A stretch of DNA of 53,997 nt from Hyphomicrobiales bacterium. Lineage in GTDB: Bacteria > Pseudomonadota > Alphaproteobacteria > Rhizobiales > Rhizobiaceae. This document shows, one piece after another, positions 14,611 through 53,644 of the stretch. Location: positions 1-53,997 of the forward strand of contig UBQX01000033.1 in assembly GCA_900467685.1 (NCBI GenBank), in the 5' to 3' direction. Numbering within the stretch: the first letter of the stretch is position 1; the number at the start of each line of letters is the position of its first letter. The notes under the pieces were generated by a model. The model ran no database searches. It was not told the DNA's origin and worked only from the letters and a program-made list of their open reading frames with translations. The position numbers and the translations under genes are program-made.

Positions 14611-14621
14611 GGGTCTCTCCC

Positions 14622-17102: not shown

Positions 17103-17115
17103 GCTAGTTTTGACA
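17097..17115. promoter_or_regulatory. Second inverted repeat in the hmgA-maiA divergent region
   Basis: TGTCAA and TTGACA arms with a 7-base spacer. One arm is the hmgA -35 box; the other lies 20 bases before the maiA start. It is a candidate site for the MarR-family regulator encoded after maiA, or a chance result of back-to-back promoters. Confidence 0.4.
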
Positions 17116-17135
17116 GAAGCAAAGAGGAGAAGGCG

Positions 17136-33503: not shown

Positions 33504-33633
33504 TCAAGTGCTCGACAGAGCGAAAGAAAAAGAGTTCGGTTGAGGCCGGTTCTGCAGCCGGACCCGTGGAGCCTGAGGAGTGCTTCGCCGGTCGGGGCGG
33601 GCAGGTTGCCCAGGCCGGACAGGGAGGAAAGAC

Positions 33634-38041: not shown

Positions 38042-38054
38042 GATTGGATATCAG

Positions 38055-38927
38055 ATGACTGTACCCGAAAAAGCCATCGTCACCTGCGCCCTCAATGGCG
38101 TTCTGACTGACCCGAGCCTGCACAACATCGCGGTGACGCCGGCGCAATGCGCGGCCTCGGCGCGCGAGGCCTATGATGCGGGCGCGGCGATCATTCATAT
38201 CCACTTCCGTCGGCAGGAGCAGGGCAAGGGCCATCTGCCTTCCTGGGAGCCGGCGGTGGCCGGGGAGATTGTCGAGGCCATCCGCGCCGCCTGTCCCGGC
38301 ATCATCATCAATGCCACGACCGGCGTGGTCGGCCCGGATTACCAGGGCCCGCTCGATGTCGTACGCGCGCTGAAGCCGGAGATCGCCGCCTGCAATGCCG
38401 GCACGCTCAATTACCTCAAGATCCGCTCCAGCGGCGAATGGGCCTGGCCGCCCATGGTCTTCGACAATCCGCCCTCCAAGGTGCAGGATTTTCTCGACGT
38501 GATGGGCGAGACCGGCACATTGCCGGAAATGGAGTGCTTCGATACCGGCATCGTCCGCTCGGTGGCGATGTATATCGCCAACGGCATGCTGAAGCGTGCC
38601 CAGTACAATCTCGTGATGGGCGTTGCATCCGGCATGCCGGTCGATGCGCGCCTGCTGCCGATCCTGACGGACTATCTGCAGGAGGGGTCGCGCTGGCAGG
38701 CGACGCTGATCGGCCGGGAGGAGATCTGGCCGGTTCACGCTGCTGCTGCAAAGCGTGGCGGGATGCTGCGCACCGGGCTCGAGGACACGTTTTACCTGCC
38801 CGACGGCGCACGGGCACGGGGCAATGGCGACCTTATCGGAGCGCTTGTTGCGATCGCTCGCAGGGAAGGTCGCGACATCGCCACGCCACAGGAAGCCCGC
38901 GCGATGCTGTTCGATGGACGTGACTGA
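38055..38927 (+). CDS. Beta-keto acid cleavage enzyme (BKACE, DUF849)
   Basis: A 290-residue TIM-barrel protein of the BKACE/DUF849 family, whose founder Kce cleaves 3-keto-5-aminohexanoate with acetyl-CoA. The zinc-binding pair is H48 and H50 (IIHIHFR) after ITCALNG-like KAIVTCALNGVLTD; the INATTGVVG segment and ECFDTGIVRS strand fit the family. These enzymes exchange a beta-keto acid and acetyl-CoA for acetoacetate and a new acyl-CoA. It is 13 bases after the DinB-fold gene and is the last gene of the unit, tail to tail with the ketone carboxylase operon, whose product should be a beta-keto acid. Start at 38055 is chosen by homology; ribosome site weak. Confidence 0.88.
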   Translation: MTVPEKAIVTCALNGVLTDPSLHNIAVTPAQCAASAREAYDAGAAIIHIHFRRQEQGKGHLPSWEPAVAGEIVEAIRAACPGIIINATTGVVGPDYQGPLDVVRALKPEIAACNAGTLNYLKIRSSGEWAWPPMVFDNPPSKVQDFLDVMGETGTLPEMECFDTGIVRSVAMYIANGMLKRAQYNLVMGVASGMPVDARLLPILTDYLQEGSRWQATLIGREEIWPVHAAAAKRGGMLRTGLEDTFYLPDGARARGNGDLIGALVAIARREGRDIATPQEARAMLFDGRD

Positions 38928-39024: not shown

Positions 39025-39061
39025 CAAAAAGCGCGCTGCCCGGATTTTCGGGCAGCGCGCT
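39025..39061 (-). terminator. Rho-independent terminator of the ketone carboxylase operon
   Basis: A perfect 13-base stem (AGCGCGCTGCCCG with CGGGCAGCGCGCT, 6-base loop) is followed on the minus strand by TTTTTGTTCG. It lies 27 bases after the CoA ligase stop. On the plus strand there is no T run, though the hairpin may also slow transcription coming from the BKACE gene. Confidence 0.92.
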
Positions 39062-39087
39062 CGCGCCGGACCGGAGGTGACGGCGCA

Positions 39088-40605
39088 CTACGCCAGGAGA
39101 CGGCGAAGTTCGGTTTTCAGCACCTTGCCGTAATTGTTTTTCGGCAGGTCCGGGATGAAGCGGTAAATCTTCGGGCGCTTGAAGCGGGCGATGTGGTCGA
39201 TGCAATAGGCGTCGAGGTCCTTTTCCGACAGGGCGGTCCCCTCTCTGGCGACAACGAAGGCAACGACGATCTCGCCCCATTCCTCATCCTTGGCGCCGAT
39301 GACGGAAACTTCCCGCACTGCCTCGTGCTGCAGGAGCAGTTCTTCCACCTCGCGCGGATAGATATTGGTGCCGCCCGAAATGATCACATCCTTCGAGCGG
39401 TCTCGCAGCGTCAGGAAGCCTTCGTCGTCGAGGCAGCCGACGTCGCCCGTGCGGAGCCAGCCATTGCGGACTGTCTCGGCACTTGCTTCCGGATTTTGCC
39501 AATACCCGGCCATGACGGGAGCGCCCCTGACCATGATTTCGCCGACGGCACCCGTCGGCAGTGGGTGCCCCGCCTCGTCGCAGATTGCGACGCGGACATG
39601 GCTTTGCGCATAGCCGACCGAGTTCAGTCTCTCGCGCCAGCGCGGATGGGTTCGATCGATCACTAGGTCGTGCGGCAGAACCGTGATGCCCATCGGACAC
39701 TCGCCCTGGCCGTAGATTTGCACGAAACGGTCCCCCAGAACCTCGACAGCCTCGAGGATATCCGCTTCATACATGGGGCCGCCGCCATAGATCACGGTGC
39801 GCAGGCCAGTCCCATCACATCCGTTGGTTTCGGCGTAGTCCACCATCCGCCGCACCATGGTCGGTGCCGCGAACATGGAGATATTGCCGATCTTCCCGGC
39901 CAGGTCGAAGATTTCCTCCGAGTCGAACCCGCCGCTTTCAGGAATCACATGGCGGGCGGCATTCATGACGAACATGAAGTTGTAGATACCGGCACCATGC
40001 GACATTGGCGCGGCATAAAGGATGGCGTCGTCCTTGCTCACATGTTCGATATCGGCAAAATAGCTATGCGTCATGGCGCCGAGATTGCCCGCCGTCAGCA
40101 TCACGCCCTTGGGACGGCCTGTCGTTCCCGAGGTGTAGAACAGCCAGACGAGTTCATCCGGATCGAGTGCAACGGGCGTTTCGAGGGGGGCGTTGGCGCA
40201 CATGTTTGTAAATTCGGTGCTCGTCACATCGACGATGTCTGGATCGCCCGGCTCGCTTACGGCGCGAAGCAAGCTGCCGTGCGACGTGTCGGAAAAGACA
40301 AGCGATGCACCGGCGTTGCGGATGATCCAGAGCGCTTCCTTCTCATGCAGCTTCGAATTGATCGGCACGGCGACCGCACCGGCAAACCAGATGCCGTAGA
40401 GGCATTCAAGGTAATGCGTCGAGTTTGCCATGAACACGGCGACGCGGTCGCCCTTTGCGATAGACGTCGCCTGAAGCGCGCGACCCAGACCGGCAGCGCG
40501 GGCGCGGAACCCGGCGTAGTCTGCAACGACACGGGTGCCGGAGAGAAGGGCAGGGCGTTCCGGGTGGATCAGGGCGGTGCGATGAAGCCATTCAGCGGGG
40601 TTCAC
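39088..40605 (-). CDS. CoA ligase (AMP-forming), ketone carboxylase operon
   Basis: A 505-residue ANL-superfamily ligase with YTSGTTGRPKGVMLTAGN, the adenine motif YGQGECPMG, GWLRTGDVGCLDDEGFLTLRDR and the C-terminal catalytic lysine in PKNNYGKVLKTEL. By its place after the carboxylase, it should activate the beta-keto acid product to a CoA thioester, the role benzoylacetate-CoA ligase has in acetophenone breakdown. The start is most likely GTG at 40605: a GGAGG site precedes it, and it overlaps the thiolase stop as GTGA, like the ATGA overlaps elsewhere in the operon. An ATG 24 bases upstream is the alternative. Last gene before the terminator. Confidence 0.88.
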   Translation of the reverse strand: MNPAEWLHRTALIHPERPALLSGTRVVADYAGFRARAAGLGRALQATSIAKGDRVAVFMANSTHYLECLYGIWFAGAVAVPINSKLHEKEALWIIRNAGASLVFSDTSHGSLLRAVSEPGDPDIVDVTSTEFTNMCANAPLETPVALDPDELVWLFYTSGTTGRPKGVMLTAGNLGAMTHSYFADIEHVSKDDAILYAAPMSHGAGIYNFMFVMNAARHVIPESGGFDSEEIFDLAGKIGNISMFAAPTMVRRMVDYAETNGCDGTGLRTVIYGGGPMYEADILEAVEVLGDRFVQIYGQGECPMGITVLPHDLVIDRTHPRWRERLNSVGYAQSHVRVAICDEAGHPLPTGAVGEIMVRGAPVMAGYWQNPEASAETVRNGWLRTGDVGCLDDEGFLTLRDRSKDVIISGGTNIYPREVEELLLQHEAVREVSVIGAKDEEWGEIVVAFVVAREGTALSEKDLDAYCIDHIARFKRPKIYRFIPDLPKNNYGKVLKTELRRLLA

Positions 40606-41762
40606 GATCTTGCCTCCAGTATCGAGCAATAATTGGCGACGCCCGAGCCGCCCATATTGAAGACGCAGGCGAGTTCCGCGCCGGGCTGTTGCATGTCTCC
40701 GGCTGTGCCCGTGACCTGCATGGCCGACATGACATGCATGGAAACGCCGGTCGCGCCGACCGGGTGGCCCTTCGATTTCAACCCTCCGGAAAGATTGATC
40801 GGCAAAGCGCCGCCACGCATGACGGTTCCGTCTGCGACGGCGCGCGCGCCTTGTCCCTCGGGCGCGAGGCCCATGGCCTCATAGATCATCAGTTCGGCGA
40901 TCGTGAAGCAATCGTGCACCTCGGCGGTGTCGAGATCCGCGACCGTGATGCCGGCGGCGTCGAAGGCGCGGCGGAACGCGGTTGTCGCACCCTCGAGATG
41001 CCACATCTGCCTTTTCGATAGAGGCAGGAAATCATTGATGTGGATCGCCGCGCGAAAACCGACGCTTCGCGGAAAGTCCGCGGCCATGTCTTCGGCCGCC
41101 AGCACGAGTGCGGCTGCGCCATCGGAAATCAGCGAACAATCCGTCAGCCGCAGCGGCGGCGCGATCATCGGGTTCTTGTCGCTGACGGAATTGCAGAAAT
41201 CGAATTCCACCTCACGCCGCATATGGGCGAGCGGATTGGCCAAGGCGTGGTCGTGGTTCTTCTTGGCAATGCGGGCCATGGCCGTCGACTGGTCGCCAAA
41301 GCGTTGGAAATAGCTCTGGGCGATCCGCCCGAAGATCTGCGGAAAGGTCACGCCGGCTTCCTCGGCCTGATAGGAGGCCCCGGCCAGCGCGCGCCCTACA
41401 CCGGCCGTGTCCAGATCGGTCATCTTTTCGACGCCGATGACCAGGGCGGTGCGAATGCGACCGGAGGCAATGGCGTCGCGGGCGCCGTAGACCGCGGCAG
41501 CGCCGGAGGCGCAGGCATTCTCGACGCGCACGGCCGGGATAAACCGCATCCGCTCATCAAGGTTCAGTGCCAGTGCTGCGGGAAACGCATCGGGGGACAG
41601 GCCGCCATTGAAATGCCCGACCCAGATCGCGTCGATATCTGCCGGCGTCAGTCCTGCATGCGCAATCGCCTCGCGCGCAGCGTCAAGGATCAGGTCCTCG
41701 AGCGTCTTGCCCTTGAGGGCACCAAAGGGCGTATGGCCCCAACCTACAATTCTTGCGTTCAT
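40602..41762 (-). CDS. Thiolase, SCP-x/acetyl-CoA acetyltransferase type
   Basis: A 386-residue thiolase of the SCP-x (SCP2-thiolase) branch. The nucleophilic cysteine is C84 (RVENACASGAAAV); HDCFTIAEL and GGLKSKGHPVGATG are the family's catalytic histidine loops; the second cysteine region near the C-terminus is weaker, as is usual in this branch. It should split the beta-ketoacyl-CoA made by the carboxylase and ligase into acetyl-CoA and a shorter acyl-CoA. ATG at 41762 has a TTTGGAG ribosome site. It lies 43 bases after the CobW gene. Confidence 0.9.
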   Translation of the reverse strand: MNARIVGWGHTPFGALKGKTLEDLILDAAREAIAHAGLTPADIDAIWVGHFNGGLSPDAFPAALALNLDERMRFIPAVRVENACASGAAAVYGARDAIASGRIRTALVIGVEKMTDLDTAGVGRALAGASYQAEEAGVTFPQIFGRIAQSYFQRFGDQSTAMARIAKKNHDHALANPLAHMRREVEFDFCNSVSDKNPMIAPPLRLTDCSLISDGAAALVLAAEDMAADFPRSVGFRAAIHINDFLPLSKRQMWHLEGATTAFRRAFDAAGITVADLDTAEVHDCFTIAELMIYEAMGLAPEGQGARAVADGTVMRGGALPINLSGGLKSKGHPVGATGVSMHVMSAMQVTGTAGDMQQPGAELACVFNMGGSGVANYCSILEARS

Positions 41763-41805
41763 TATGTCTCCAAACATCGTTTATCAGGCCGAAGGTCATG
41801 GGGGC

Positions 41806-42921
41806 CTAGACCAGCGCGAGCTCGCTGAAGGCTTCTTCCAGCTGGGCTCGAGGAAGGTTGCGCCCGATCATGACAATGCGGCTGGTGCGGTCTTGGTCCG
41901 GCCAGGTGCTGAGCCACTCGATCGGGTAGAACTTGTCCTGCACGGCATGCACGACCGCGGGCTGCCCCTCGCGCCCCGTAATGTGCAGCACGCCCTTGAT
42001 GCGCAACACGTCGTCCCGATAGAGATTGACGACCCGGTTGAGGAATACCGCAGCGCCGGCGAGCGAGAGCGGCCTGTCTGTTTGCAGGACCAGGCTTGCG
42101 TAATCGGCCGCGTGATCATGATGGCCGCCATGATCGTGGTGATCCTGACGAGGCTCATCCTGATGACCATGACTATGCCCATGATGGTGATCGTGGTGAT
42201 GGTCGGGGTGGCTGCAATGGCTGTCGTGGCAGTCATGACGATGCGCCGGCTGTTTGGCTGCCTGTGGCGGCATCCAGCTTTGAACCTTGGCGCCGTCGCG
42301 ACCGGCTTCGAACAGCCCGCGGCGGAAGAGGCGCGCCGCGTCGATCTGGCCGCGTTCGCTCAGTACCGCTTCGGCTCCGGGGTTGAGGCGTCTGACCAGC
42401 GATTGAGCGCGCGAAATCCCATCTCCTCTAGACAGGTCGGTCTTGGTGACGAGCACGATATCGGCCATGGCGATCTGGCTGGCGGCCGTCTGATGGTTGG
42501 CGACAGTGCGCTCGACATTCAGCACGTCCGCGCAGGTGATCACCACATCCGGGGTGAAGGCCTTGCGGATCGGCGGATTTGCCATGAGCGTGTGCAGGAT
42601 CGGAACCGGATCGGCCAGCCCGGTCGTTTCGATGACGACATAGTCGAAATCGGCGATCTCGCCGAGGATCCGTTTCTCATGGAGATCGCGCAGCGTCATC
42701 ACCAGGTCGCCGCGGATGTTGCAGCACAAGCATCCGTTGCGAAGCTCGACAATGTTTTCGGCGGACCGTCTGACCAGCAGGTGGTCGATCGACACTTCCC
42801 CGAATTCGTTGATGATGACGGCCGTGCGGGCCATGTCGGGCGCGTCCAGCACATGGGCCAGCAGCGTGGTCTTGCCGCTGCCGAGAAAGCCCGTGACGAT
42901 AGCGACTGGGGTTGGTCTCAT
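41806..42921 (-). CDS. CobW/COG0523 GTPase with His-rich loop, putative metallochaperone
   Basis: A 371-residue G3E-family GTPase. The P-loop is GFLGSGKTTL (11-20), the metal-binding CLCC motif is at 64-67, the magnesium/hydrolysis motif includes ETTGLADP (98-105) and the guanine motif is TKTD (159-162). Between the GTPase and CobW_C domains is a loop very rich in His and Asp, residues 227-270, with well over 15 histidines. COG0523 proteins insert or traffic metals such as zinc and cobalt. The ATG overlaps the stop of the fifth carboxylase-operon protein (ATGA), so it is made with the enzyme. Acetone and acetophenone carboxylases are metalloproteins (Mn or Zn), so delivery of the enzyme's metal is the natural hypothesis. 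Confidence 0.93.
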   Translation of the reverse strand: MRPTPVAIVTGFLGSGKTTLLAHVLDAPDMARTAVIINEFGEVSIDHLLVRRSAENIVELRNGCLCCNIRGDLVMTLRDLHEKRILGEIADFDYVVIETTGLADPVPILHTLMANPPIRKAFTPDVVITCADVLNVERTVANHQTAASQIAMADIVLVTKTDLSRGDGISRAQSLVRRLNPGAEAVLSERGQIDAARLFRRGLFEAGRDGAKVQSWMPPQAAKQPAHRHDCHDSHCSHPDHHHDHHHGHSHGHQDEPRQDHHDHGGHHDHAADYASLVLQTDRPLSLAGAAVFLNRVVNLYRDDVLRIKGVLHITGREGQPAVVHAVQDKFYPIEWLSTWPDQDRTSRIVMIGRNLPRAQLEEAFSELALV

Positions 42922-43715
42922 GCTGTCACCTCTTGCCTGAGCTTTGCGGCCTGTGCGGAAACCGTTTCCGGCGTGGCGTCGGCGGGTATTCTTCCGAAAA
43001 GGAAGGCTTGCGCAGGGGGCGGTGCGTCGCCCGACCAGAATTGCGCATTGAGGCCCGCGCCGATCAGCCGATCCTTGCGGCTTCCGGTTTCGGCGAGGCA
43101 GAAGTTGCCGGGGAAATCTTCGACCTCCGTGCCCGCGGCAAGTTCGAATCCACACTGCCAGCCGAAATATTGCGCCGACTTGAAAAGCGGTTCGGTCGCC
43201 TCGATTTCATCATCCGAGACGCCGTCCGGCAGGCGCGTTCGCACGACGATGCCGGCAATCGACCGCGTGGCCAGTGGGCGAAGCAGTTCGATATAGCGAT
43301 TGGAGATGTCGTCCATGGCGTCGAAATCGACTGCATCGCCATAACGGGCCAGAAGATCGGCGGGGCTGTCGAGCGACAGAATCAAATCGGCCGAGCCGGA
43401 CAGAGCATGAAGGATGGCATCCACCGATTCAGCCAGCAGGCCGGCCGCGTGATCGTCGGTGAGAGCGACCAAGATGGCGGGTGTTCCGCCATCCTGAAGT
43501 GTTGAAGCGGATCGCAGGAAGAAGGCCGATGCATCGAGCGTCAGGATATGGGCACCAATGACACGATTGGCCATGCGCAACGCCCCGGCCTGTCTGGCGG
43601 GATTTTCCCGCCAGTCGGCCGCGCCTCTCGCAAAGACGCGCCAGGCATAATCTTCCAGATCGACCCATAATGCCTGCGGCCGGTTGCCCGTCAGATAGTC
43701 ATGCAGAAAGCCCAT
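42918..43715 (-). CDS. Fifth protein of the carboxylase operon (position of Apc5)
   Basis: A 265-residue protein without a motif I can name. It begins MGFLHDYLTGNRPQALWVDL, has an acidic middle and no signal peptide or membrane helix. It stands directly after the alpha-type HyuB subunit and before the CobW gene, the place of apc5 in the acetophenone carboxylase operon of Aromatoleum, whose fifth subunit (about 34 kDa) is loosely bound yet needed for activity. Whether this protein (about 29 kDa) is homologous to Apc5 cannot be shown without a search. The AAGGAGG ribosome site before the start is strong, so it is certainly expressed with the others. Confidence 0.75.
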   Translation of the reverse strand: MGFLHDYLTGNRPQALWVDLEDYAWRVFARGAADWRENPARQAGALRMANRVIGAHILTLDASAFFLRSASTLQDGGTPAILVALTDDHAAGLLAESVDAILHALSGSADLILSLDSPADLLARYGDAVDFDAMDDISNRYIELLRPLATRSIAGIVVRTRLPDGVSDDEIEATEPLFKSAQYFGWQCGFELAAGTEVEDFPGNFCLAETGSRKDRLIGAGLNAQFWSGDAPPPAQAFLFGRIPADATPETVSAQAAKLRQEVTA

Positions 43716-43746
43716 CGCGTCCTCCTTCGTTCCGATAAAGCGGCGT

Positions 43747-45984
43747 TCAGCCTTTGGTGAGTTGCTCGAGCTGGCTTTCGAGCTGGCGAATGCGCACGTC
43801 CTTGGGATCGGGCATCATCACGCCAACCATGGCGTCGGCAGAACACGTATCCGTCGGCGAGCCACGATAGATCAGCTTGGGGTCCTTCCACGAACCGTAG
43901 AAGGGCAGGTGTTCCGGCGGATGCTCGGTTTCCCACTCGGCGACGAATTCGGCATAGGGCTTGCCCTGCTGAAGTCGCTTCTTGCGTGCGGCGGCGCGGG
44001 CCGCAGCGGTCCCTTGAGGATCGACCGCGCCTGTGGTCGCATCGAGCACCACCGAATAGATGTCGCGGGCGACATCCATGGACACGAGCTTGTCACGGTA
44101 GTCCTGCGCCACCATTTCCGGATCCCGGTCCAGGACGTCGCCATAGCCACCGCCGGAACCCTGGGTCAGCATGTAGAGCTCGCCGGGATTGGCGAATTCG
44201 AGCTGGAGGCCCATATGGTGGGTCGTATACTTGGCGTCCTTGAACGGCTGCTCGTTCATGATCTCCTCGACCGTGTAGCGCAGCAGTTCGCGGTTATCCT
44301 TCATCACCTCGAAGACGTTGACGCCCGTCACCTTGCAGAGCGGATAGGTCGCCGCGCCATAGCCGCCGAAAATCCCGTGCGTTGAGGGGAATTTCGAACC
44401 GATCGAGCAAGCCATGAAGCCCCAGAGGCTGGTGTCCTTCATGGTGGCGATCTGCTGATAGCCATGGCCGCCGCGATATTTGCCGAAGCCCTGGTTGTCG
44501 CGCATGACCCGGTTGGGCACGATCTTCATCATCGGAACTTCTTCTTCGATCAGTTCCTGCTCGCCGATATCCGCCATTGGCGCGAAGATCGGTGCGATGG
44601 AATGTTCGCCATCGCGGTTCCAGCGTGCGGCCCCGCCCATGCCGTTCAGGTCGGCGCAGACATTGCCCACGAGTTCGCCATGCTGGTTGAACCCACCATA
44701 GATGAAGGTGACAATCATGTTGTACCAGCCCGAGATGACGTCGGTGGCCTTCTCGGAGGCGCTGTAGACGAACTTCGGAGCCGCCAGCTGGGCAGCCGTG
44801 AAACTCGGGAAGAAGGTCATCATGCTCTGCGCGTTCGGCGCTGCGGGAGAGCAGTTGAGCGCTGAGTTCTTGTCCGTCAGCACCGTCATCGGTTCGAACA
44901 CCGCCTGATTGCGCGGCAGGTCGGGCCAGACGAAGCTCAGGAATTCCTGCGCCAGCATGCCCTTGGCCGAGGCCAGGACCGTGTTGTTGGCGCGGTTGGT
45001 GAATTCCGGCGACGAGCCGCGGAAGTCGAGGATCAGCTCGTCATCGCGCTTTTCCATTTCGAGGCGCAGGCGCAACAGCACGTTCTCGCGCAGCGTCCCG
45101 TCAGGGAAGACGTTCTGGCGCACCTTGCCATCGGGCCAGGTCCGCAGACGACGACGAACCTCATCGGCCGTGTCCGTCAGCGTCCGGCGCAATGTGGCGG
45201 AGAGCGCATCGATGCCGTATTCGGCAATCGTTTCCTCGATACGCGTCTTCATGCGCATGGCGGCATAGAGCTTCGACTTCATGCCTTCGAGCTGCAGCTT
45301 CGGCTCACGAACCGAGTTCTGAAGGAAGGTCATGATATCCTTGCGGAAGGTGTAGTTCTCGCCGACCTTGATCGGCGGCATTTTCAGGCCTTCATCATAG
45401 GGGCTTTCCGCCTTGGAGGGCATGCCGCCCGGTTCGATGGCGCCGTTTTCGCCTTCATGCACCATCGCGCCCGTGAAGCAGACCAGCTTGCCTTCGTGGA
45501 AGACCGGCAGGATCAGGCTCTGGTCGGTATTGTGGATGTTGCCGTAGCGCGCGTCGTTGTGAAGGAAGATATCGCCTTCCTTCAGTCCAACAGTCGGGTC
45601 CTTCTGCCAGTATTTCAGGATGAACTTCACCGGATGCTGCGTCAGCACCGAGAAGAGCAGAACGCCGCCCATGCTGGAAAGCGCCAGATCGCCCGAGGCC
45701 GTCCAGACGCCGGCAATCAGGTCGCCCCATTTCGCACCCGGCGCCGCGCCCATCTGCTCGACCATGTCGAAGCTTTCGTTGCAGGCCGTCTGGAGCTTGT
45801 GGCGAACCAGGTTCATCTGGTCCGCGTCGGTGAATTTGGCAAGCGCTGTCGTTTCAGCGGCGGTTTCCGGCGCCAGCTTGTGGTTGTTCATGATCTCCGG
45901 ATCGGGTCCGAGGAAGAGAACATTCTCTTCCAGGAACTTTTCGATCAGGGAGCGTTCCTGCTTTGCTGAACTATGAATATTCAT
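43747..45984 (-). CDS. Ketone carboxylase HyuB-type subunit (AcxB/Apc4-like)
   Basis: A 745-residue hydantoinase B/oxoprolinase-family protein matching the alpha subunit of acetone carboxylase and Apc4. The conserved LHNDARYGNIHNTDQS segment (141-156; H142, D144, H151) corresponds to the family's metal-site loop. Glycine-rich segments (GFGKYRGGHGYQQ, TQGSGGGYGDVLDRDP) mark the C-terminal half. In acetone carboxylase this subunit carries the metal and the carboxylation site, while HyuA-type subunits phosphorylate substrate and bicarbonate. GGGAGG ribosome site; 17 bases after the first HyuA gene. The ketone is unknown. Confidence 0.9.
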   Translation of the reverse strand: MNIHSSAKQERSLIEKFLEENVLFLGPDPEIMNNHKLAPETAAETTALAKFTDADQMNLVRHKLQTACNESFDMVEQMGAAPGAKWGDLIAGVWTASGDLALSSMGGVLLFSVLTQHPVKFILKYWQKDPTVGLKEGDIFLHNDARYGNIHNTDQSLILPVFHEGKLVCFTGAMVHEGENGAIEPGGMPSKAESPYDEGLKMPPIKVGENYTFRKDIMTFLQNSVREPKLQLEGMKSKLYAAMRMKTRIEETIAEYGIDALSATLRRTLTDTADEVRRRLRTWPDGKVRQNVFPDGTLRENVLLRLRLEMEKRDDELILDFRGSSPEFTNRANNTVLASAKGMLAQEFLSFVWPDLPRNQAVFEPMTVLTDKNSALNCSPAAPNAQSMMTFFPSFTAAQLAAPKFVYSASEKATDVISGWYNMIVTFIYGGFNQHGELVGNVCADLNGMGGAARWNRDGEHSIAPIFAPMADIGEQELIEEEVPMMKIVPNRVMRDNQGFGKYRGGHGYQQIATMKDTSLWGFMACSIGSKFPSTHGIFGGYGAATYPLCKVTGVNVFEVMKDNRELLRYTVEEIMNEQPFKDAKYTTHHMGLQLEFANPGELYMLTQGSGGGYGDVLDRDPEMVAQDYRDKLVSMDVARDIYSVVLDATTGAVDPQGTAAARAAARKKRLQQGKPYAEFVAEWETEHPPEHLPFYGSWKDPKLIYRGSPTDTCSADAMVGVMMPDPKDVRIRQLESQLEQLTKG

Positions 45985-46001
45985 GTTGTCCTCCCAGAGC
46001 C

Positions 46002-48128
46002 TCAGCTCTTCATTTCCAGCCAGGCGGAACCGCTGTTTCCAACGGTAAGCTTCCAGTCCGGCTCGACGAGATAGGTGGTGCGCGGCGTTTCAATGAGCGC
46101 CGGGCCGTTGATCACGGTTCCCTCTGCTAAGTCTGCGTAGTCGTAGACCGCCGTCACCGCTCCCTCGGCGAGGCTCGGGAAATGGCAGATGCGTTCCGCG
46201 CGGGGCGTCGGCGCTCCTGCACCCTTCGCGTGGCTGGGCTTCAGGTCGACCTGCGCATGCGACAGATAGGAAACGACACGAATGACGTTGATTCTGACGC
46301 CCGCTTCGGGAGCCTGGCTGCCTTCGCCGAAGCGCTGGGCATAGTTGTGCGAGAAGATGTCGAGAAGCGTGATGACATCCTGATCGCTTTCGATCCGCGA
46401 GAACGGGCAGACGACGCCCGTTTCCGCCAGCTGGTTGCCGTAGCGCAGATCGAGTTCCAGCCGGGTGCGGATGTCTTCCTCTTTCGCGCCCTGGCGCAGA
46501 AGGTCATCGCGGCCACGGGCCTCGAGCTGGGCGACAACCTCGTTGAAGTTGCTGAAGTCACCAAGCATGGCGCGGGTGTTGGCGTCGTAGAGCATCATGT
46601 AGACCGAGGTCTCATGAATATGAAGCTGGTCCATGTTGCCGGCGCCGAGTGCGGAGAACACGGAGCTGAAGGGTGGAATGAGCACCCTTTTGACGCCGAT
46701 GCCGGCCGAATAGCCGCAGGCATGGAGCGGACCGCCGCCGCCATAACTCAGGATGACGAAGTTCTTCGGATTGTAGCCCTTCACGGCCACTTCCTTGAAG
46801 ATCGCCGCCGCCATGTTGCTGTCGACCTTGCGCTTGATGGCCTTGGCCGCCTCGATGACAGACATGCCCGTCGGCTTGCAGATGTGCTCCTCGATGGCGC
46901 GTTCGGCGCGGCGCTTGGAAAGCTTGATCGTGCCGCCGGCATAGTTGTCTTCGTCAAGATAGCCGAGAACCAGGTTCGCGTCCGTCGTCGTCGGCAGCTT
47001 GCCGCCGCGGCCGTAGCAGGCCGGGCCGGGATCGGAACCGGCGCTGGCCGGGCCAACCTCGATGGCGTTCCACATCCGGTCGAAACGGGCAATCGAGCCG
47101 CCGCCTGCGCCGAGCGTATGCAGATAGGTCATCGGCGTGCTGACGAGCCAGCGGTCGATGATCGGGTTGAAGTCGTAGAACTTCGTTCCGTCCGCCGTCA
47201 CCAGCCCGATATCGAAGCTCGTGCCGCCCATGTCGGTGGCGATCAGGTTCGGTTCCTTGAAGGCGTTCGACAGGTAGTTGGTGGCTTCCAGCCCGGCGAC
47301 GGGGCCGGAATGGATGGTCTGCAGCGATGAAGTGGAGTTCATCTGCGCCATGCCGGAGGTGTTGTGCACCAGCAGCATCGGCTTCTTGTAGCCGTTGCGG
47401 CGCAGTGCGATCTCCAGCGTCGACATGCCGTGATACATCTGGTCGTGCAGATAGGCGTCGATGATGGACGAGGTCGCGCGGGCATATTCACCCTTTCGAC
47501 CCGCCACGCGGTGCGACAGGACGATCGGTATCGAGCCGAGCATATGGGTCGGATATTCCGACAGGATGATCTGCTCGACCTGTTTTTCGTGCGCCGGGTT
47601 CACGACGGCGTTGACCAGCGCGACCACGAAAGCCTGTACGCCGAGATCGACCAGCTTGCGCACCTGGGCGCGAACGTCGTCCTCGTCGACCGTCAGGATC
47701 GCGTCGCCCTTGTAGTCGATGCGCTCGCGGATGCCGACGATGTTCGACATCGGCACCAGGGCTGCGGGCCGGTTGGCGGCGGGAAGGTCGGCCTGCTGAG
47801 CCTCTCCCAGACCATCACCGTAGCCACGCGCCCGCATCAGCGGGACGGTGGATTCAAAGCCCGCCGTCGTCACGAGGCCGACCTTGGGGCCGTTGCGCTC
47901 GATCAGTGCGTTGGTGCCGAGTGTTGTCGCATAGCGAACGGCATCGACGCCTTCGAGAACCTCTGCGACCGGAACCCCGATTTCGTCGCAGGCCTTGCCC
48001 AAGGCATCCATGAAGCCGGAGGACAGGTTATTGTGGGTCGTCAGCGACTTGGATTCGACGTATTTGCCGTCGAAGGCCAGGAAGCAGTCGGTGAATGTGC
48101 CACCGATATCTACACTTACACGTCTCAT
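46002..48128 (-). CDS. Ketone carboxylase HyuA-type ATPase subunit (AcxA/Apc3-like)
   Basis: A 708-residue hydantoinase A-family protein with the N-terminal phosphate loop DIGGTFTD (7-14), the second nucleotide segment IATDMGGTSFDIGLV (near 290) and GGGGPLHACGYSAG. It matches the beta subunit of acetone carboxylase and Apc3 of acetophenone carboxylase in size and layout. It hydrolyses ATP to activate the ketone enol and bicarbonate. The start overlaps the gamma-subunit stop (ATGA) with a GGAGG site within that gene. Confidence 0.9.
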   Translation of the reverse strand: MRRVSVDIGGTFTDCFLAFDGKYVESKSLTTHNNLSSGFMDALGKACDEIGVPVAEVLEGVDAVRYATTLGTNALIERNGPKVGLVTTAGFESTVPLMRARGYGDGLGEAQQADLPAANRPAALVPMSNIVGIRERIDYKGDAILTVDEDDVRAQVRKLVDLGVQAFVVALVNAVVNPAHEKQVEQIILSEYPTHMLGSIPIVLSHRVAGRKGEYARATSSIIDAYLHDQMYHGMSTLEIALRRNGYKKPMLLVHNTSGMAQMNSTSSLQTIHSGPVAGLEATNYLSNAFKEPNLIATDMGGTSFDIGLVTADGTKFYDFNPIIDRWLVSTPMTYLHTLGAGGGSIARFDRMWNAIEVGPASAGSDPGPACYGRGGKLPTTTDANLVLGYLDEDNYAGGTIKLSKRRAERAIEEHICKPTGMSVIEAAKAIKRKVDSNMAAAIFKEVAVKGYNPKNFVILSYGGGGPLHACGYSAGIGVKRVLIPPFSSVFSALGAGNMDQLHIHETSVYMMLYDANTRAMLGDFSNFNEVVAQLEARGRDDLLRQGAKEEDIRTRLELDLRYGNQLAETGVVCPFSRIESDQDVITLLDIFSHNYAQRFGEGSQAPEAGVRINVIRVVSYLSHAQVDLKPSHAKGAGAPTPRAERICHFPSLAEGAVTAVYDYADLAEGTVINGPALIETPRTTYLVEPDWKLTVGNSGSAWLEMKS

Positions 48129-48484
48129 TCTGCTGCCTCCTTCTGGTCGAGATGCCGGGCCTTCAGCTTGTCGATGTCGAGTTCGATGTCATGGGTGAGG
48201 GGATGCCCCGGCGGCAGATATTCCGCCTCGACCTGGGTGGCGCATTCCGGGCAGTAGTATTCGATGATCCGGCACCAGGTGGGGTCCGGGGCATAGGTGA
48301 ATTCGTACTTGTCCGCGTTGAGAATGGGCCGGTGGATCTCGCGGGGATCGCGGTTGTAGACCAGCAGGCCGGTCTTGTAGTTGTCACGCGCGCTGGCGAT
48401 GTCGTGGCCGCAGCAGCGGCACTTCCAGCGCTCGGTCTCGAGCTCGATTTCCAGATATTCGGTAATGGCGATTGATTTGGTCAT
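48125..48484 (-). CDS. Ketone carboxylase gamma subunit (AcxC/Apc2-like)
   Basis: A 119-residue protein of the acetone carboxylase gamma family. It has cysteines 22, 24, 25 (WKCRCCGH) and 71, 78, 81 (CPEC), a likely zinc-ribbon-type metal site, and a C-terminal PPGHPLTHDIELDID segment. It is shorter than the 160-170-residue gamma subunit of acetone carboxylase and nearer the ~15 kDa Apc2. Gene and both neighbours overlap by four bases, so production in fixed proportion is likely. The short protein is easily missed by gene finders. Confidence 0.88.
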   Translation of the reverse strand: MTKSIAITEYLEIELETERWKCRCCGHDIASARDNYKTGLLVYNRDPREIHRPILNADKYEFTYAPDPTWCRIIEYYCPECATQVEAEYLPPGHPLTHDIELDIDKLKARHLDQKEAAE

Positions 48485-50385
48485 TTCGTCTCCTCCAGGA
48501 TCAGGTCGCGATTGGCGCTCATCCTCAGTTTCCATCCCGGCTTGACAAAGCAGGTCAGATATTCGGACCGGATCAGCGCCGGCCCGGCGCCGGTATTGCC
48601 CGGTACGATCGCGCTTGCGGCATGAACGGCCGCGTCAACGCTCGACCCGTTGCGCCCGATGCGGGTGGTCGCCCCGCCGGAAAGCGGGCTTGCGCCGATC
48701 GGCTTGTCGGGGGTGAGGGCAAAGGTCGGCAGATCGAAGCTCGCCCGCAGCGAAAGCTTGCCCGAAGAGGCCGGAAGCTTGCCGTTGGTCAGCGGATGTT
48801 CGATCACCTCGCCGCTGCGCTCCTCCCACACGGCGAATTCGTAGCGGCAATCGTCGCTGCTGACCCCTTCGCCCAGCATGTCGCGTTTTGCGCGGGTGGT
48901 CATGACGGCCTTGGCGGCATCGAGATCGCCAGCGGCATGCTCGAGCGGTTGCAGGTAATGATGCGCCAGACCGGAGAAGCCGATACCGAAGGCGCTGAAG
49001 ACCGCCGCGAGGTCCGGGACGATGACGCTGCGCATGCCGGCGGCCTCGGCAATGCCGGTGGCCAGGATCGGACCGCCACCGCCGAAGACCAGCAGCGTGG
49101 CGTCGCCGGCTGAAATGCCGCCATCGGCAAGCGTCTGCGCGATCTGCGAGCCGACCTGCTGCTCGAAGGCATCGATCATCGCCGCGACGGCATCGTCCAC
49201 ACCAAGCCCGAGAGGTTCGGCGATCCGGTGATGGATGGCATTGCGGGCGCGATCCTTGTCGAGCTTCAGCTCGCCGCCGAGATAGTTTTCACCATCGACG
49301 ATGCCGGCGAGAAGAAGCGCATCTGTGAGCGTCGCTTCCGTGCCGCCGCGGCCGAAACAGGCCGGACCCGGTGCGGCGCCGACGCTTTCGGGACCGATCG
49401 CGATGCGACCATTCCTGATCGAGAAGATCGAGCTGCCGCCGAAGCCGAAGCTGAGGATATCGGGCAGGGCGACCGAAGTCTGCGCGCCTTCGACGCGGCC
49501 ATACATTTGCAGGCCGATCTTGCCGTTGCGGACGACCGACACGTCGGTGGTCGTGCCGCCGATATCCATGCCCACAACAACGGGTAGCTTGTAAAGCTCG
49601 GCATAGGCGACCGCGCCCTGCAGCCCGCCGCGCGGACCCGAACCCCAGGTGCGAATGGCTGTGGTCTTGGCCACACGGGCCGAGTCGCCGTCATTGCGGT
49701 AGATCAGCAGCGGACTGCCCATGAAATGGGTCTTGCAGACGCCTTCGGCACCGTAGAGGAAGTGCTCCATGCCCGGATGCAGATAGGAGTTCAGCACGGC
49801 CGTGACCACTCTGCGGCCGCTGTCGCTGTCCTGCGAGACTTCGTGCGAGAGCATGAAGGGGACGGCGCCCAGAAGGTGGCGCGGATAGCGGTCGAGCAGG
49901 ATTTCCTTGACGCGCTGCTCCTCAGCCGCGCTCGAAAGGCCGATGACAAGACGCTTCATGCCCTGTTCCAGCATCCGGTTCACGACCTGCACCAGGGCTT
50001 CCGAGGCGATGCCGGGCGCAATGCCGACCACGTCCTGCGGCACCATATGGGTCCAGAGGTCATCGTGCCCGGTCGAGGCGATGGCGCCGTAAATGTCGCC
50101 CTCCTGCCCGGCATCCACGATCAGCCCGACCGGCGTTCCCTTGCGCTCGACCACGGCGTTCGTGCCGGACGTGGTGGAGTAGCGCAGATATTTGGTGTCG
50201 CGGATAAGGCGGTAGAGATCCGCGTCGCCGTAGATCTTCTTCGAGATATGCTCGAGCGACTTGACGAAACATTGCGTCAGGTCGTGCGGTGTTGTCGGCG
50301 ATTTTCCATGATGGACATTCGCGCCATCAAAGACGCACACATCGGTGAACGTCCCGCCGTTGTCGATGTTGATGAGCAGTTCCAT
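48481..50385 (-). CDS. Second HyuA-type ATPase subunit (Apc1-like), first operon gene
   Basis: A 634-residue hydantoinase A-family protein with DNGGTFTD (8-15), the second nucleotide segment VVGMDIGGTTTDVSVV and VFGGGGPILATGIAEAAGM. It resembles the 708-residue HyuA protein in plan but is shorter, as Apc1 (about 70 kDa) is relative to Apc3. Three-gene acetone carboxylases have only one HyuA-type subunit, so this extra one places the enzyme with the acetophenone carboxylase type. It is the first gene of the operon; its ribosome site is weak, and an open stretch with a short leader frame lies upstream (50563-50598). Confidence 0.88.
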   Translation of the reverse strand: MELLINIDNGGTFTDVCVFDGANVHHGKSPTTPHDLTQCFVKSLEHISKKIYGDADLYRLIRDTKYLRYSTTSGTNAVVERKGTPVGLIVDAGQEGDIYGAIASTGHDDLWTHMVPQDVVGIAPGIASEALVQVVNRMLEQGMKRLVIGLSSAAEEQRVKEILLDRYPRHLLGAVPFMLSHEVSQDSDSGRRVVTAVLNSYLHPGMEHFLYGAEGVCKTHFMGSPLLIYRNDGDSARVAKTTAIRTWGSGPRGGLQGAVAYAELYKLPVVVGMDIGGTTTDVSVVRNGKIGLQMYGRVEGAQTSVALPDILSFGFGGSSIFSIRNGRIAIGPESVGAAPGPACFGRGGTEATLTDALLLAGIVDGENYLGGELKLDKDRARNAIHHRIAEPLGLGVDDAVAAMIDAFEQQVGSQIAQTLADGGISAGDATLLVFGGGGPILATGIAEAAGMRSVIVPDLAAVFSAFGIGFSGLAHHYLQPLEHAAGDLDAAKAVMTTRAKRDMLGEGVSSDDCRYEFAVWEERSGEVIEHPLTNGKLPASSGKLSLRASFDLPTFALTPDKPIGASPLSGGATTRIGRNGSSVDAAVHAASAIVPGNTGAGPALIRSEYLTCFVKPGWKLRMSANRDLILEETK

Positions 50386-50562: not shown

Positions 50563-50598
50563 CTAGCCGCTCGACAAAGTCGATGTCTGGATGTTCAT
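50563..50598 (-). CDS. Possible 11-residue leader peptide before the carboxylase operon
   Basis: A GGGAGG site five bases before an ATG at 50598 is far better than the site of the first full gene. It opens an 11-codon frame, MNIQTSTLSSG, closed by TAG. The same frame is then open without another stop for 59 codons up to the ATG of the HyuA gene at 50385. It may be a leader peptide that affects translation or transcription of the operon, or a sign that the protein was once longer at its N-terminus. Confidence 0.4.
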   Translation of the reverse strand: MNIQTSTLSSG

Positions 50599-50662
50599 GA
50601 TTTCCTCCCTTGCGCCAGGCAGCTCTCCAGGCTGTCGGCAGGAGGACAGATTGGAAAACAGG

Positions 50663-50740
50663 CCGGAGTGGTGTCACCACCCGTTGGTGTGGTGGAGATA
50701 TTTTTATTGGGGGGTGGTGATCCAGATCGGGGTGTGGCGG
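50663..50740. promoter_or_regulatory. Cluster of GTGGTG repeats, candidate activator boxes
   Basis: GTGGTG occurs at 50666-50671, 50687-50692 and 50712-50717, spaced 21 and 25 bases, with a related GGGGTGTGGCGG at about 50727-50738. The first forms GTGGTG-T-CACCAC with the other strand. MalT, a regulator of the same LAL class as the adjacent protein, binds short G-rich asymmetric boxes arranged in this manner. Confidence 0.5.
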
Positions 50741-50890
50741 ACCCGTTTGGCGGTTCTGTCTCTTTCAGAGCCTAGACAGATGCCGAAGCCAGCGCATAAT
50801 GTGCCTGTGCCGAAGAGGAACGGCATCATGCGCAAAGGGAGGAGGTTTGGGTTCGATGTGAACCCGAGCGTCGAAGCGCCAGGAGGAAGG

Positions 50891-53644
50891 ATGGTAGGTC
50901 CGGCCGCAGCCAAGCACAATATTCTTGTTACGAAACTGCTTGCGCCTCAGGCGCCGAGCATGATCGTCATGCGTGACCGCTTGCATCCGCGGCTGGCGGA
51001 AGGAGCAACGAAGAAGATCACGCTTATTCAGGCGCCTGCCGGTTTCGGCAAGACGACCTCCGCCGTGATCTGGCGCGCGCTGATCGAGGAGAAGGGGGAA
51101 AAGGTCGCCTGGCTCAGCCTCGATCGGTTGGACAATAACCCCGTCCGCCTCGTCCAATATATCCTTGCGGCCTTTCGCACCGTCGCCCCCGACCTGATCG
51201 AGGATGCCAATACGCTGATCGAGGAACGTACCGGCGATGTCTCCGGCCACGCGCTCAACGAATTGCTTAATGCGCTGACGACCCACGGACGAAACGTCTA
51301 TCTGGTGCTTGACGATGTTCACCTGATTTCCGACAGCGATGCCGTCGCCGCTCTATCATTCCTGCTGGAGTTCTCGCCGCCCAACGTCCACTTTCTGATT
51401 GCCTCGCGCTTCCGCCCGAAGGTGCAACTGTCGCGTCTCGAAGTACATGGTCAGGTCGTGACGCTGAAGGCGCAGGATCTGCGTTTCGATGAACGCGAGA
51501 CCGGGCAGTTTCTCGGAGGCGTCGGCAACATGGAACTGCTAGGCGAGCAACTTCGCTCGCTGTGGCAATCGACCGAAGGCTGGGTGGCAGCGCTGCAGCT
51601 CGCGATGCTGTCCCTGCGCAACAGCACCGAGATCGACGCGCAGCTGAGCAATCTCAGCAAGATTTCCGGCAGTGTCGATGAATATCTTGCCGAAACCACG
51701 CTCGATGCACTCGCGCCGGAGCGTCGGGAGTTCCTGCTCAAGACCTCGATCCTCGATCGCCTGAGCCACGAATTATGCAACGCCGTCACCGGCCGAACGG
51801 ACAGTCAGGCGATGCTGGAGGAACTGGAGCGGGACAATCTGTTCATCCGTCCCCTGGACGAGGGCGCGCACTGGTTTTCCTATCATCACCTCTTCGCCGC
51901 GCATCTGAAGCGCCGTCTTCAGCGCTATCACCCGGAATGGCTGGAGGACCTGCATCACAAGGCGGCCGATTGGTTCGAAAACACCGGTGATATCGAATCC
52001 GCCGTCAGTCACGCGCTGGCGTGCGAGGATGTCGGTCGGGCCATCACGATCATCGAACGCAATGCCATGCTGCTTGTCGAGCGAAGCTGGATGGGGACGC
52101 TTCTGCGCCTTGTCGAGCGTGTTGAGCCGCGGGACATTGCAGGCCGTCCGCACCTTCAACTGGCGCTCGGCTGGGCCAATTGTCTGACCCACCGGCTGGA
52201 TGACGCCTACATTGCGCTCAACCGCTTTCATGCCGCAGTGGCGAGCGCAGTAACCGGGGACGATGTGGTCAGAATGCGCGCAGATGCCGAGGTTCTGCGG
52301 GCCTGCATCGATATCTATTCAGACAGGGTGGATGGCATCGAGCAAAGACTGCGCCCCATTCTCGACGCGCCGGGGCTCTATACGCCTTGGATCTTGGCCG
52401 TTGCCGCAAATGTCCTCTCCTTTGCAATGATCCATACCAACCGGTTTTCCGAAGCCGTGGCACTCCAGGCTTGGGCGAGGCCCTTCCACCAGCAGACGGT
52501 CGGCGTCTTCAGCGGGGTGTACGGGCTCTGCTTCACCGGTCTCGCAGAGCGCGAACGCGGCAACATCGAGGCTGCCGCGAAAAACTTCGAGGAAGCAATG
52601 GCGCTGGCGCGAGATCGCATCGGCAGCCGCTCCCACGCGGCCCTGCTGGCATCGGCGCTGCTCGGCCAGATCTATTTCAAGCGCGGGGAGTTCGAGCGCG
52701 CCAGCCCATTGATCGAGGAAAGCCGCAAACTGGGCGCGGAAGGCGGCGTCATCGATTTTTATATCGCCACCTATTCCTGCGCCTGCCGGCTCGCAGGGAT
52801 GCGCGGGGATTATGCCGAGGCTTTCGAGATTGTCAGGGAAGGCGAGGCAACAGCCGCCAAGCTTGCCAGCCCGCGTCTGAGCGCGGTGCTGGCCGAGGAG
52901 ACGACCCGGCTTTCGCTCGCCATCGGCGACACGTTCGGGCTGTCAGGGGCGACCATTTCAATGCTTGCGCCAGCCGAAGTCGGCAGCGGCATGGGGGCCA
53001 TCATCGACGATCTTGCCGACCGTGCGGAAGCAAGGGCTGCGGCCGGAAGGGGCGACGCCATGCATGCTTGCGAGGTGCTTGAGCCTCTCCTCGATAGGGT
53101 CCGCCATTCGGGGCGGGTTCATCAGGAACACCTTCTCATGCTCCAGTTGTCCGTAGCAAAATTTCTGGCGCAGGATTTCGACGGCGCGGAGGGCGCGCTG
53201 CTTCAAGGGCTGGACTATGCCGAGAAGCGCCATCTTGTCAGTATGTTCTATGGTGAGGGGCTTGCGATGCAAAGCCTGCTCGAACGGATTTCGAGGCAGC
53301 AGCGCAACCTCGCCCAAAAGGACGCTGTGCCACGTCATATTCATCAGTTCGTTTCACTGCTTCTTTCCCGCTGGCCGGGCAAGTTGCGTCGCAGCAGTGT
53401 CGACGCTTCGAATGCCGAGCCGACGCCGAGCCTGTCGATCAGCGATTTCAGCGATCGCGAGGTGCAGATCTTGCGATTGCTCTGTCAGGGGCGATCCAAC
53501 AAGGAAATCGCGCGGGTCCTCAATCTCGAGGTCAATACCATCAAATGGCATTTGAAGAATATCTTCGGAAGCCTCGGGGTGAACAGGCGGATGAATGCCG
53601 CTGCCGTCGCGACAAAGCTGGGAATCGTTGTCGCAGAAAGATGA
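50891..53644 (+). CDS. LAL-type (MalT-like) LuxR-family ATPase regulator
   Basis: A 917-residue regulator of the large ATP-binding LuxR class. The N-terminal STAND ATPase has Walker A QAPAGFGKTT (47-56) and Walker B YLVLDDVHLI (137-146). A long helical, TPR-like middle follows (from about 380), and a C-terminal LuxR helix-turn-helix occupies about 853-917 (FSDREVQILRLLCQGRSNKE, then IARVLNLEVNTIKWHLKNIF). Such proteins oligomerise on ATP and inducer binding and activate transcription. Divergent from the carboxylase operon, it is the likely activator, sensing the ketone or a product. ATG at 50891 sits four bases after AGGAGG; earlier in-frame starts lack conservation. An acyl-homoserine-lactone domain is absent. 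Confidence 0.93.
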   Translation: MVGPAAAKHNILVTKLLAPQAPSMIVMRDRLHPRLAEGATKKITLIQAPAGFGKTTSAVIWRALIEEKGEKVAWLSLDRLDNNPVRLVQYILAAFRTVAPDLIEDANTLIEERTGDVSGHALNELLNALTTHGRNVYLVLDDVHLISDSDAVAALSFLLEFSPPNVHFLIASRFRPKVQLSRLEVHGQVVTLKAQDLRFDERETGQFLGGVGNMELLGEQLRSLWQSTEGWVAALQLAMLSLRNSTEIDAQLSNLSKISGSVDEYLAETTLDALAPERREFLLKTSILDRLSHELCNAVTGRTDSQAMLEELERDNLFIRPLDEGAHWFSYHHLFAAHLKRRLQRYHPEWLEDLHHKAADWFENTGDIESAVSHALACEDVGRAITIIERNAMLLVERSWMGTLLRLVERVEPRDIAGRPHLQLALGWANCLTHRLDDAYIALNRFHAAVASAVTGDDVVRMRADAEVLRACIDIYSDRVDGIEQRLRPILDAPGLYTPWILAVAANVLSFAMIHTNRFSEAVALQAWARPFHQQTVGVFSGVYGLCFTGLAERERGNIEAAAKNFEEAMALARDRIGSRSHAALLASALLGQIYFKRGEFERASPLIEESRKLGAEGGVIDFYIATYSCACRLAGMRGDYAEAFEIVREGEATAAKLASPRLSAVLAEETTRLSLAIGDTFGLSGATISMLAPAEVGSGMGAIIDDLADRAEARAAAGRGDAMHACEVLEPLLDRVRHSGRVHQEHLLMLQLSVAKFLAQDFDGAEGALLQGLDYAEKRHLVSMFYGEGLAMQSLLERISRQQRNLAQKDAVPRHIHQFVSLLLSRWPGKLRRSSVDASNAEPTPSLSISDFSDREVQILRLLCQGRSNKEIARVLNLEVNTIKWHLKNIFGSLGVNRRMNAAAVATKLGIVVAER

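Follow-up and report, generated by a model that had tools for sequence, protein, structure and literature searches.

We describe an operon of eight minus-strand genes at positions 39088-50385 of a 53,997-nucleotide (nt) stretch of DNA from a Hyphomicrobiales bacterium of the Rhizobiaceae (NCBI GenBank assembly GCA_900467685.1, contig UBQX01000033.1; the whole stretch is referred to here as the window). Judged from its sequence, the operon probably serves the assimilation of a ketone by means of a five-part carboxylase, a CoA ligase, a thiolase and a CobW-type GTPase, with a LAL-type regulator alongside; we give this reading a probability of roughly 0.87. The first five genes would encode a complete machine of the acetophenone carboxylase (Apc) type that is distinct from Apc itself. 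Machines of this kind are already known; what is new is the sister clade to which this one belongs, the pocket of that clade, the in-line route, and the breadth of the family of its epsilon subunit.

Results

Core subunits of the probable carboxylase

The original prediction, made from the sequence of the window, proposed an Apc-type carboxylase, and the proposal holds for all four core subunits: in a sequence search of the PDB, the best solved relative of each is a chain of the Apc structure 5L9W. The alpha' subunit (ApcA-like, HyuA fold, 634 aa, 48481-50385; a probable bicarbonate kinase) matches chain b best, at 319 bits across residues 5-623. The small Zn-finger subunit (ApcB-like, 119 aa, 48125-48484) belongs to Acetone_carb_G (PF08882, 142 bits), and scores 133 bits against 5L9W_C, which is ApcB, versus 54 against the gamma subunit of acetone carboxylase. 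For the alpha subunit, an ApcC-like HyuA of 708 aa (46002-48128; a probable ketone kinase), the scores are 541 bits to 5L9W_B, 288 to oxoprolinase and 274 to acetone carboxylase; for the beta subunit, an ApcD-like HyuB of 745 aa (43747-45984), they are 308 bits to 5L9W_A and 155 to acetone carboxylase. The Pfam families of these proteins agree with the PDB assignments, and the Apc models are the top NCBIfam matches of all four.

Finer features of the subunits are of the same type. The alpha' protein carries the ASKHA motifs GAAPGP, DNGGTFTD and DIGGTTTD. A RERIDYKG segment is present in HyuA and missing from alpha', and the occurrence of such a segment (R/KERiDsxG, or RERIDxxG) in alpha but not in alpha' has been given as a mark of Apc alpha subunits (PMC5214803). 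As a lone criterion this segment is weak, similar letters occurring in some sequences of the hydantoinase side. In the small subunit, C22, C25, C78 and C81 are invariant in 13 aligned sequences and make up a four-cysteine Zn site, and there is no 50-aa N-terminal extension. The gene order alpha'-gamma-alpha-beta-epsilon agrees with that given for Apc-type enzymes (PMC5214803). The lengths give a mixed picture: gamma (119 versus 129 aa) and alpha' (634 versus 658) fit Apc, HyuA has 708 aa versus 732, and HyuB, with 745 aa, exceeds the 684 of ApcD. None of the marks of acetone carboxylase (Acx), namely the order HyuA-HyuB-gamma, a gamma subunit of about 168 aa and clustering with Acx, was found.

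The metal site of HyuB is conserved across the enzyme types. Acetone carboxylase binds Mn through Glu89, His150, Asp153 and His175 (PMC5543143); these residues align with D65, H123, D126 and H148 of Apc and with D88, H151, D154 and H176 of the window HyuB. Over 94 aligned HyuB sequences, the four columns hold D in 90 and E in 2, H in 92, D in 92 and H in 92, with two gapped rows in each.

The HyuA tree

The HyuA set comprised 100 rows (105 open reading frames, less seven second copies, plus two reference chains), of which 54 were kept after removal of near-duplicates. In the maximum-likelihood tree, which was rooted at the midpoint and for which the tool warned that long branches meet, the window HyuA lies in a clade of 44 rows (support 100/98) that is sister to Apc (5L9W) plus one relative, L059, with a joint support of 98/91. 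Outside the joint clade fall the organism's own acetone-carboxylase HyuA and seven rows of the hydantoinase/oxoprolinase side. The HyuA phylogeny and the gamma comparison put forward in the original prediction thus gave no clustering with hydantoinases or oxoprolinases, and a small subunit that sides with ApcB. Both an acetone carboxylase and a hydantoinase identity were rejected on the tree together with the gene order.

The closest relatives, in a metagenome-assembled genome (MAG) of the Azospirillaceae and in gammaproteobacterial MAGs, have HyuA proteins 74-77% identical to that of the window. Members of the clade span Pseudomonadota, Actinomycetota, Bacillota, Myxococcota and others, and include one on a haloarchaeal plasmid. 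Two contigs filed as MAGs of Klebsiella pneumoniae (L067 and L076) have the operon, with HyuA proteins 77% and 75% identical to the window's, and in this they resemble the copies of the gammaproteobacterial MAGs; the label may be wrong. Elsewhere, annotation has given the name acetophenone carboxylase to Apc-like gene sets of Rhodococcus ruber (PMC6498646) and Paraconexibacter (PMC11737030).

The probable epsilon subunit

The original prediction counted the 265-aa product of the fifth gene (P0005, 42918-43715), a protein it could not name, as the fifth subunit. P0005 has no match in Pfam or NCBIfam, and by itself gives only chance-level sequence matches in the PDB; a profile of 51 of its homologues found no PDB sequence match even at E 10 and no convincing Pfam family (best E 0.026). 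An AlphaFold model built with the homologues has a predicted local distance difference test score (pLDDT) of 94.1 and a predicted TM-score of 0.92. Among 350,542 PDB chains, Foldseek ranks ApcE (9fou_D) first for this model (E 6.9e-7, TM 0.66/0.63, root-mean-square deviation 4.4, 16% identity). Next come barrels of methionine synthase and of uroporphyrinogen decarboxylase, with E-values no better than 4e-5. A second model, led by the Xanthobacter homologue (pLDDT 93.1), places ApcE chains at ranks 1, 2 and 4. Of 64 epsilon rows, including that of the window, 51 and 43 went into the two models. 9FOU was recognized as ApcE by its structure title, and the comparison is one of fold. The assignment of P0005 as a separate, ApcE-like epsilon subunit is supported by the predicted fold in both models.

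Operon layout and regulation

Downstream of the five carboxylase genes lie three more: a CobW/COG0523-type GTPase with a His-rich stretch (371 aa, 41806-42921; PF02492 and PF07683), which is a possible metal chaperone; an SCP-x-type thiolase of the PRK07516 subfamily (386 aa, 40602-41762; NF005704, 617 bits with a cut-off of 412); and an AMP-forming acyl-CoA ligase with a GTG start (505 aa, 39088-40605; PF00501, 238 bits). The thiolase and ligase starts were chosen by ribosome-binding-like sequence. All eight genes are thus present in the predicted order on the minus strand, with coordinates and families in agreement. With Pfam E-values for the best family between 2.3e-37 and 6.7e-74 across the seven identified proteins, chance is no issue for the gene identities. 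The genes were said to be joined mostly by 4-base overlaps; this is true of four of the seven junctions; at the remaining three, 17, 31 and 43 nt separate the genes. By eye, a GGAGG/GAGG/GGAG-like stretch precedes each of the seven downstream starts by a few bases.

A strong terminator had been predicted at the end of the operon, and an intrinsic terminator is indeed found there (39029-39062, minus strand): reading 39062-39029, a hairpin of 14 pairs, 11 of them GC, is followed by a T run, and the surrounding 74 nt fold at -44.7 kcal/mol (z -5.86 versus 200 shuffles). Region-wide, terminator-like sites are not enriched (7 found versus a shuffle mean of 8.7), and the single sigma-70-like promoter match of the region is on the strand opposite to the operon. 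Only the strength and the place of this terminator therefore matter. Upstream of the operon, across a gap of 205 nt, lies a divergent gene (50591-53644, plus strand) for a LuxR regulator of the MalT/LAL type (1017 aa; Pfam GerE and TPR_MalT), a candidate activator, which scores 371 bits in the NCBIfam MalT model, below the cut-off of 537. Nothing in the base composition points to recent import: GC is 62% in the operon and 57-65% across the window.

Related loci

A small-subunit alignment scan of genome contigs of 84,980 species gave 341 relatives. The best 80 of these were retained, and four plasmid loci plus nine from further genomes bring the set to 93 loci, one of which (L059) sits on the Apc side of the HyuA tree. 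Sixty-five of the 80 have enough flank for the five genes to be counted, the other 15 being too short. With epsilon counted anywhere in the locus, the set is complete in 57 of the 65; alpha' is present without a detected epsilon in three, and both are absent in five. All 57 epsilon-bearing loci carry alpha'. In 56 of them the epsilon gene is found downstream of HyuB, at least 10 of these having a further stretch of more than 600 bases in between; in the remaining one (L073) it is upstream of alpha'.

The five loci in which neither an alpha' relative nor epsilon was detected (L110, L117, L121, L122 and L133) are from Solimonas, Sinimarinibacterium and Panacagrimonas, and carry gamma-HyuA-HyuB of the clade. 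A LAL regulator is encoded in all of them except L122, and L121 also has an acetoacetate-CoA ligase. They are mutually related rather than independent, and perhaps represent a natural reduced form of the operon. A Fisher value for the link between alpha' and epsilon takes such loci as independent and should not be read as a true probability. The two genes are missing together as if their products formed one functional unit, which fits a role of epsilon alongside alpha' such as has been proposed for Apc.

P0005 found only itself in a search of 61 relatives' genomes, as did alpha' in six genomes of the genus. Matches to alpha' occur in 10 of 385 genomes of the class (E 1e-60) and in 4 of 398 of the phylum (E 1e-85), with the organism's own genome included and at most three candidates scored per genome.

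The exact eight-gene order, for which the original prediction looked to other genomes, occurs in none of the 93 loci. A CoA-activating enzyme of some kind is near 46 of the 93 at the thresholds used: of the acetoacetate-CoA ligase type in 37, a 3-oxoacid CoA-transferase in 2 and a FadD-type ligase in 7 (partial in L063). Homologues of the LAL regulator occur in 32 of the 93 and a sigma-54-type activator in 20. In 33 of the 93 an acetoacetate-CoA ligase is encoded no more than 5 kb downstream of HyuB and on its strand, and each of the five ligases tested (L094, L054, L135, L121 and L103) passes the cut-off of TIGR01217 for acetoacetate-CoA ligase. On a plasmid of Neorhizobium petrolearium (L143, 17136-23341), an annotated sigma-54 factor, a CobW-like GTPase, a CoA-transferase pair and a sigma-54 activator stand beside the five genes; the B subunit of the transferase passes TIGR02428, and the A subunit has no NCBIfam match at E 1e-80. 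In one of the nearest relatives, the Azospirillaceae MAG (L063, 15947-17770), CobW follows epsilon and precedes a partial ligase 62% identical to the window's over 133 residues; there is also a weak thiolase-like match of 25 residues, and these remnants would reflect either a broken gene or an assembly fault.

Thiolases of the window's subfamily, over the NF005704 cut-off, lie beside the relatives L126 and L132. The window thiolase is 71-73% identical to those of Ruegeria sp. TM1040 and Roseivivax sp. THAF40, and its ligase is 62% identical over 504 residues to the ligases of the same two strains. In these roseobacters the pair has the same gene order and 4-nt overlap as in the window and is followed by a short-chain dehydrogenase/reductase (SDR) gene; each of the ten solved structures that match the TM1040 SDR best bears the name of a hydroxybutyrate dehydrogenase.

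Discussion

Proposed route

We suggest that the five subunits form an ATP-dependent, biotin-free ketone carboxylase of the Apc type. HyuA would phosphorylate the enol of the ketone and alpha' would phosphorylate bicarbonate, with the metal-bearing HyuB as the site or the scaffold of carboxylation. The Zn-finger subunit may stabilize the core, and the separate, barrel-shaped epsilon might close the complex or bridge the two kinase sites. The CoA ligase would then activate the resulting beta-keto acid, and the thiolase would split the activated product into acetyl-CoA and a second acyl-CoA. The metal of the HyuB site may be supplied by CobW; two acetone carboxylases acquired their metal without a chaperone (PMC10865871). 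Control of the operon could lie with the divergent LAL regulator.

The closest system described is apcABCDE-bal of Aromatoleum aromaticum EbN1 (PMC5214803, PMC4729919), which has five subunits in the same gene order and, like the window operon, includes a CoA ligase gene (bal; PMC4729919). Core motifs, metal-site residues and, on the evidence of the models, the epsilon fold are common to the two. The window HyuA differs in belonging to a separate sister clade and in five of seven ketone-pocket residues; the window operon includes a thiolase and CobW, whereas PMC4729919 describes that of the Aromatoleum route as an unknown thiolase; and a LAL regulator adjoins the window operon, whereas Apc of Aromatoleum has a two-component system. 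Acetone carboxylase, acxABC (5M45, 5SVB/5SVC), has homologous HyuA, HyuB and Zn-finger subunits with conserved metal-site positions, but consists of three subunits in the order HyuA-HyuB-gamma, with a gamma of 168 aa and with Glu at one metal ligand where the window HyuB has Asp.

A number of observations weigh against the ketone-assimilation reading. (i) In the proposed ketone pocket of Apc, two of the seven lining residues are kept in the window and five differ: the window HyuA has T, I, H, Y and L where Apc has L81, F281, N282, Q344 and T345, and T for L81, H for N282 and L for T345 recur in 44, 44 and 43 of the 44 clade rows. One of the three named residues of the Apc bicarbonate site is kept and two differ. 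(ii) The NCBIfam scores of the core proteins are far under the equivalog cut-offs (ApcA 370/1250, ApcB 157/250, ApcC 568/1500 and ApcD 338/1500 bits), so that by this standard they are Apc-type but no orthologues; HyuB, at 745 aa, is longer than ApcD (684) and nearer to acetone carboxylase (776). (iii) The epsilon model has TM-scores to uroporphyrinogen decarboxylase (up to 0.68) that equal those to ApcE (0.66), and a decarboxylase takes rank 3 for the Xanthobacter model; as the TM-scores do not discriminate, the ApcE match rests on E-value, root-mean-square deviation and gene place. (iv) CobW, thiolase and ligase occur together in none of the 93 loci, a thiolase is near only 15 and CobW near 7; the ligase and thiolase neighbour counts, moreover, are raw counts from these loci. 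(v) In the open-access literature, surveyed mainly at the abstract level, no activity test or substrate was found for any member of the clade. Further points of this kind, which concern the substrate, are taken up below. What stands of the original prediction is the Apc type; Apc proper is set aside by the sister clade, the scores under the cut-offs and the changed pocket.

The substrate

Three kinds of activating enzyme that we tie to acetoacetate accompany the clade, from which we infer a short beta-keto acid as the product and, in turn, acetone or butanone rather than acetophenone as the substrate. The ketone that the original prediction left open would then be, to go by the gene company, short and aliphatic rather than aryl, and we see about an even chance that it is a short aliphatic methyl ketone, acetone or butanone. 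Several findings pull the other way. The genome has an acetone-carboxylase set elsewhere, and it is for this reason that butanone is considered. The nearest gammaproteobacterial loci have other neighbours, NCBIfam at E 1e-80 names none of the three roseobacter SDRs, and the argument from the ligase may carry less weight than it seems to. The acetone-carboxylase set, on another contig of the genome (C11, about 72077-76318; L055), has the order HyuA-HyuB-gamma, a HyuB that scores 660 bits to 5M45, and a relative of the ligase nearby.

The substrate of an enzyme of the same type could instead be a larger ketone, whether aliphatic, alicyclic or terpenoid. The separate acetone-carboxylase set leaves room for another ketone, and around the five genes in closely related loci of gammaproteobacteria lie genes for DUF1329, MMPL-transporter, YCF48-like and Trp_halogenase-family FAD enzyme proteins, a neighbour set that is presumably associated with the uptake of hydrophobic compounds. 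Those families are absent among the scanned genes of the window, and acetoacetate-CoA ligase is the commonest activating partner in the 93 loci, which makes a larger ketone unlikely. The neighbour clusters are shared by seven of the closest gammaproteobacterial copies (L065, L066, L069, L070, L072, L075 and L076), though some loci lack some of the clusters; the L065 representatives are an MMPL-type transporter and YCF48-like, DUF1329 and Trp_halogenase-family (FAD enzyme) proteins.

An aryl alkyl ketone as substrate, be it acetophenone itself or an analogue with a substituted ring, seems more doubtful again. The ligase would in that case be of the benzoylacetate type and the thiolase would free aroyl-CoA. 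Such a substrate would suit the fact that the closest characterized machine is Apc, whose operon also has the ligase gene bal (PMC4729919), the annotation of the Rhodococcus ruber genes as acetophenone carboxylase (PMC6498646), and a homogentisate, that is aromatic, gene cluster within the window at 12012-17159. It agrees poorly with the five replaced residues of the Apc pocket, with the 3-hydroxybutyrate dehydrogenase-like gene that the ligase-thiolase pair accompanies in roseobacters, and with the acetoacetate-CoA ligase or 3-oxoacid CoA-transferase near other clade members.

It could also be argued that the ligase-thiolase pair is a separate 3-hydroxybutyrate/acetoacetate module that adjoins the carboxylase by chance. 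In Ruegeria and Roseivivax the pair occurs without a carboxylase in the 15-kb regions, as a thiolase-ligase-SDR operon whose acetoacetate would, to go by the SDR, come from 3-hydroxybutyrate; and none of the 93 loci has the exact eight-gene order. We consider a chance association improbable, because in the window the pair continues the line of carboxylase genes, no gap is wider than 43 nt and a single strong terminator closes the series, and because the same thiolase subfamily is near the five genes in Xanthobacter and in a Microbacteriaceae genome; even such a module would fit the route if it made acetyl-CoA from acetoacetate.

Very little speaks for an ATP-dependent lactam or hydantoin hydrolase in place of a carboxylase: hydantoinases, 5-oxoprolinases and caprolactamases (6YRA, 7HK5; NCBIfam CapA and CapB) share the HyuA/HyuB families and ATP motifs, and HyuA scores 436 bits to the caprolactamase alpha subunit (cut-off 1000) besides its match to oxoprolinase, but these hydrolases consist of two subunits or one fused chain, without gamma, second HyuA or epsilon, their hydantoinase-type clusters have just two genes (PMC5214803), the tree is against them, and here a ligase and a thiolase follow.

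Surroundings of the operon

The rhizobial type of host that was predicted fits a megablast of window positions 1-24000 against plasmids, in which 144 of 362 records are Rhizobium and 100 Agrobacterium. The homogentisate cluster at 12012-17159 (HgmA, fumarylacetoacetate hydrolase and an FAD-binding protein) is similar to plasmid stretches of Ciceribacter and Rhizobium. Convergent with the operon, plus-strand genes at 33580-38927 encode a biotin-dependent carboxyltransferase, a biotin carboxylase, a TIGR03084 metal-binding protein and a beta-keto acid cleavage enzyme (BKACE), and could act on beta-keto acids. As a second outlet for such acids they were rejected, since they do not recur near relatives: the only locus matched by BKACE is part of the organism's own genome, and the carboxyltransferase had a single match.

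Implications

Finally, we note what the operon may mean for this enzyme family. It offers a compact route, with a candidate carboxylase, a metal GTPase, a ligase and a thiolase in line. It also assigns the elusive epsilon to a broad protein family, one missed by the sequence libraries that were searched and now open to comparative study, and the five loci without alpha' and epsilon are a natural experiment on the role of epsilon. When the Apc structure was published, the Apc branch counted a single biochemically characterized enzyme, and it was suggested that the differing mechanisms of Apc and Acx go with aromatic versus aliphatic ketones (PMC5214803). We suggest, tentatively and at somewhat less than even odds, that a large sister clade of Apc runs the full five-part machinery, with its two ATP sites, on short aliphatic ketones such as acetone and butanone, which in nature are already served by the simpler three-part acetone carboxylase. 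Such a clade, if real, would contradict the suggested split, and the reason for having two kinds of ketone carboxylase in one genome would become testable.

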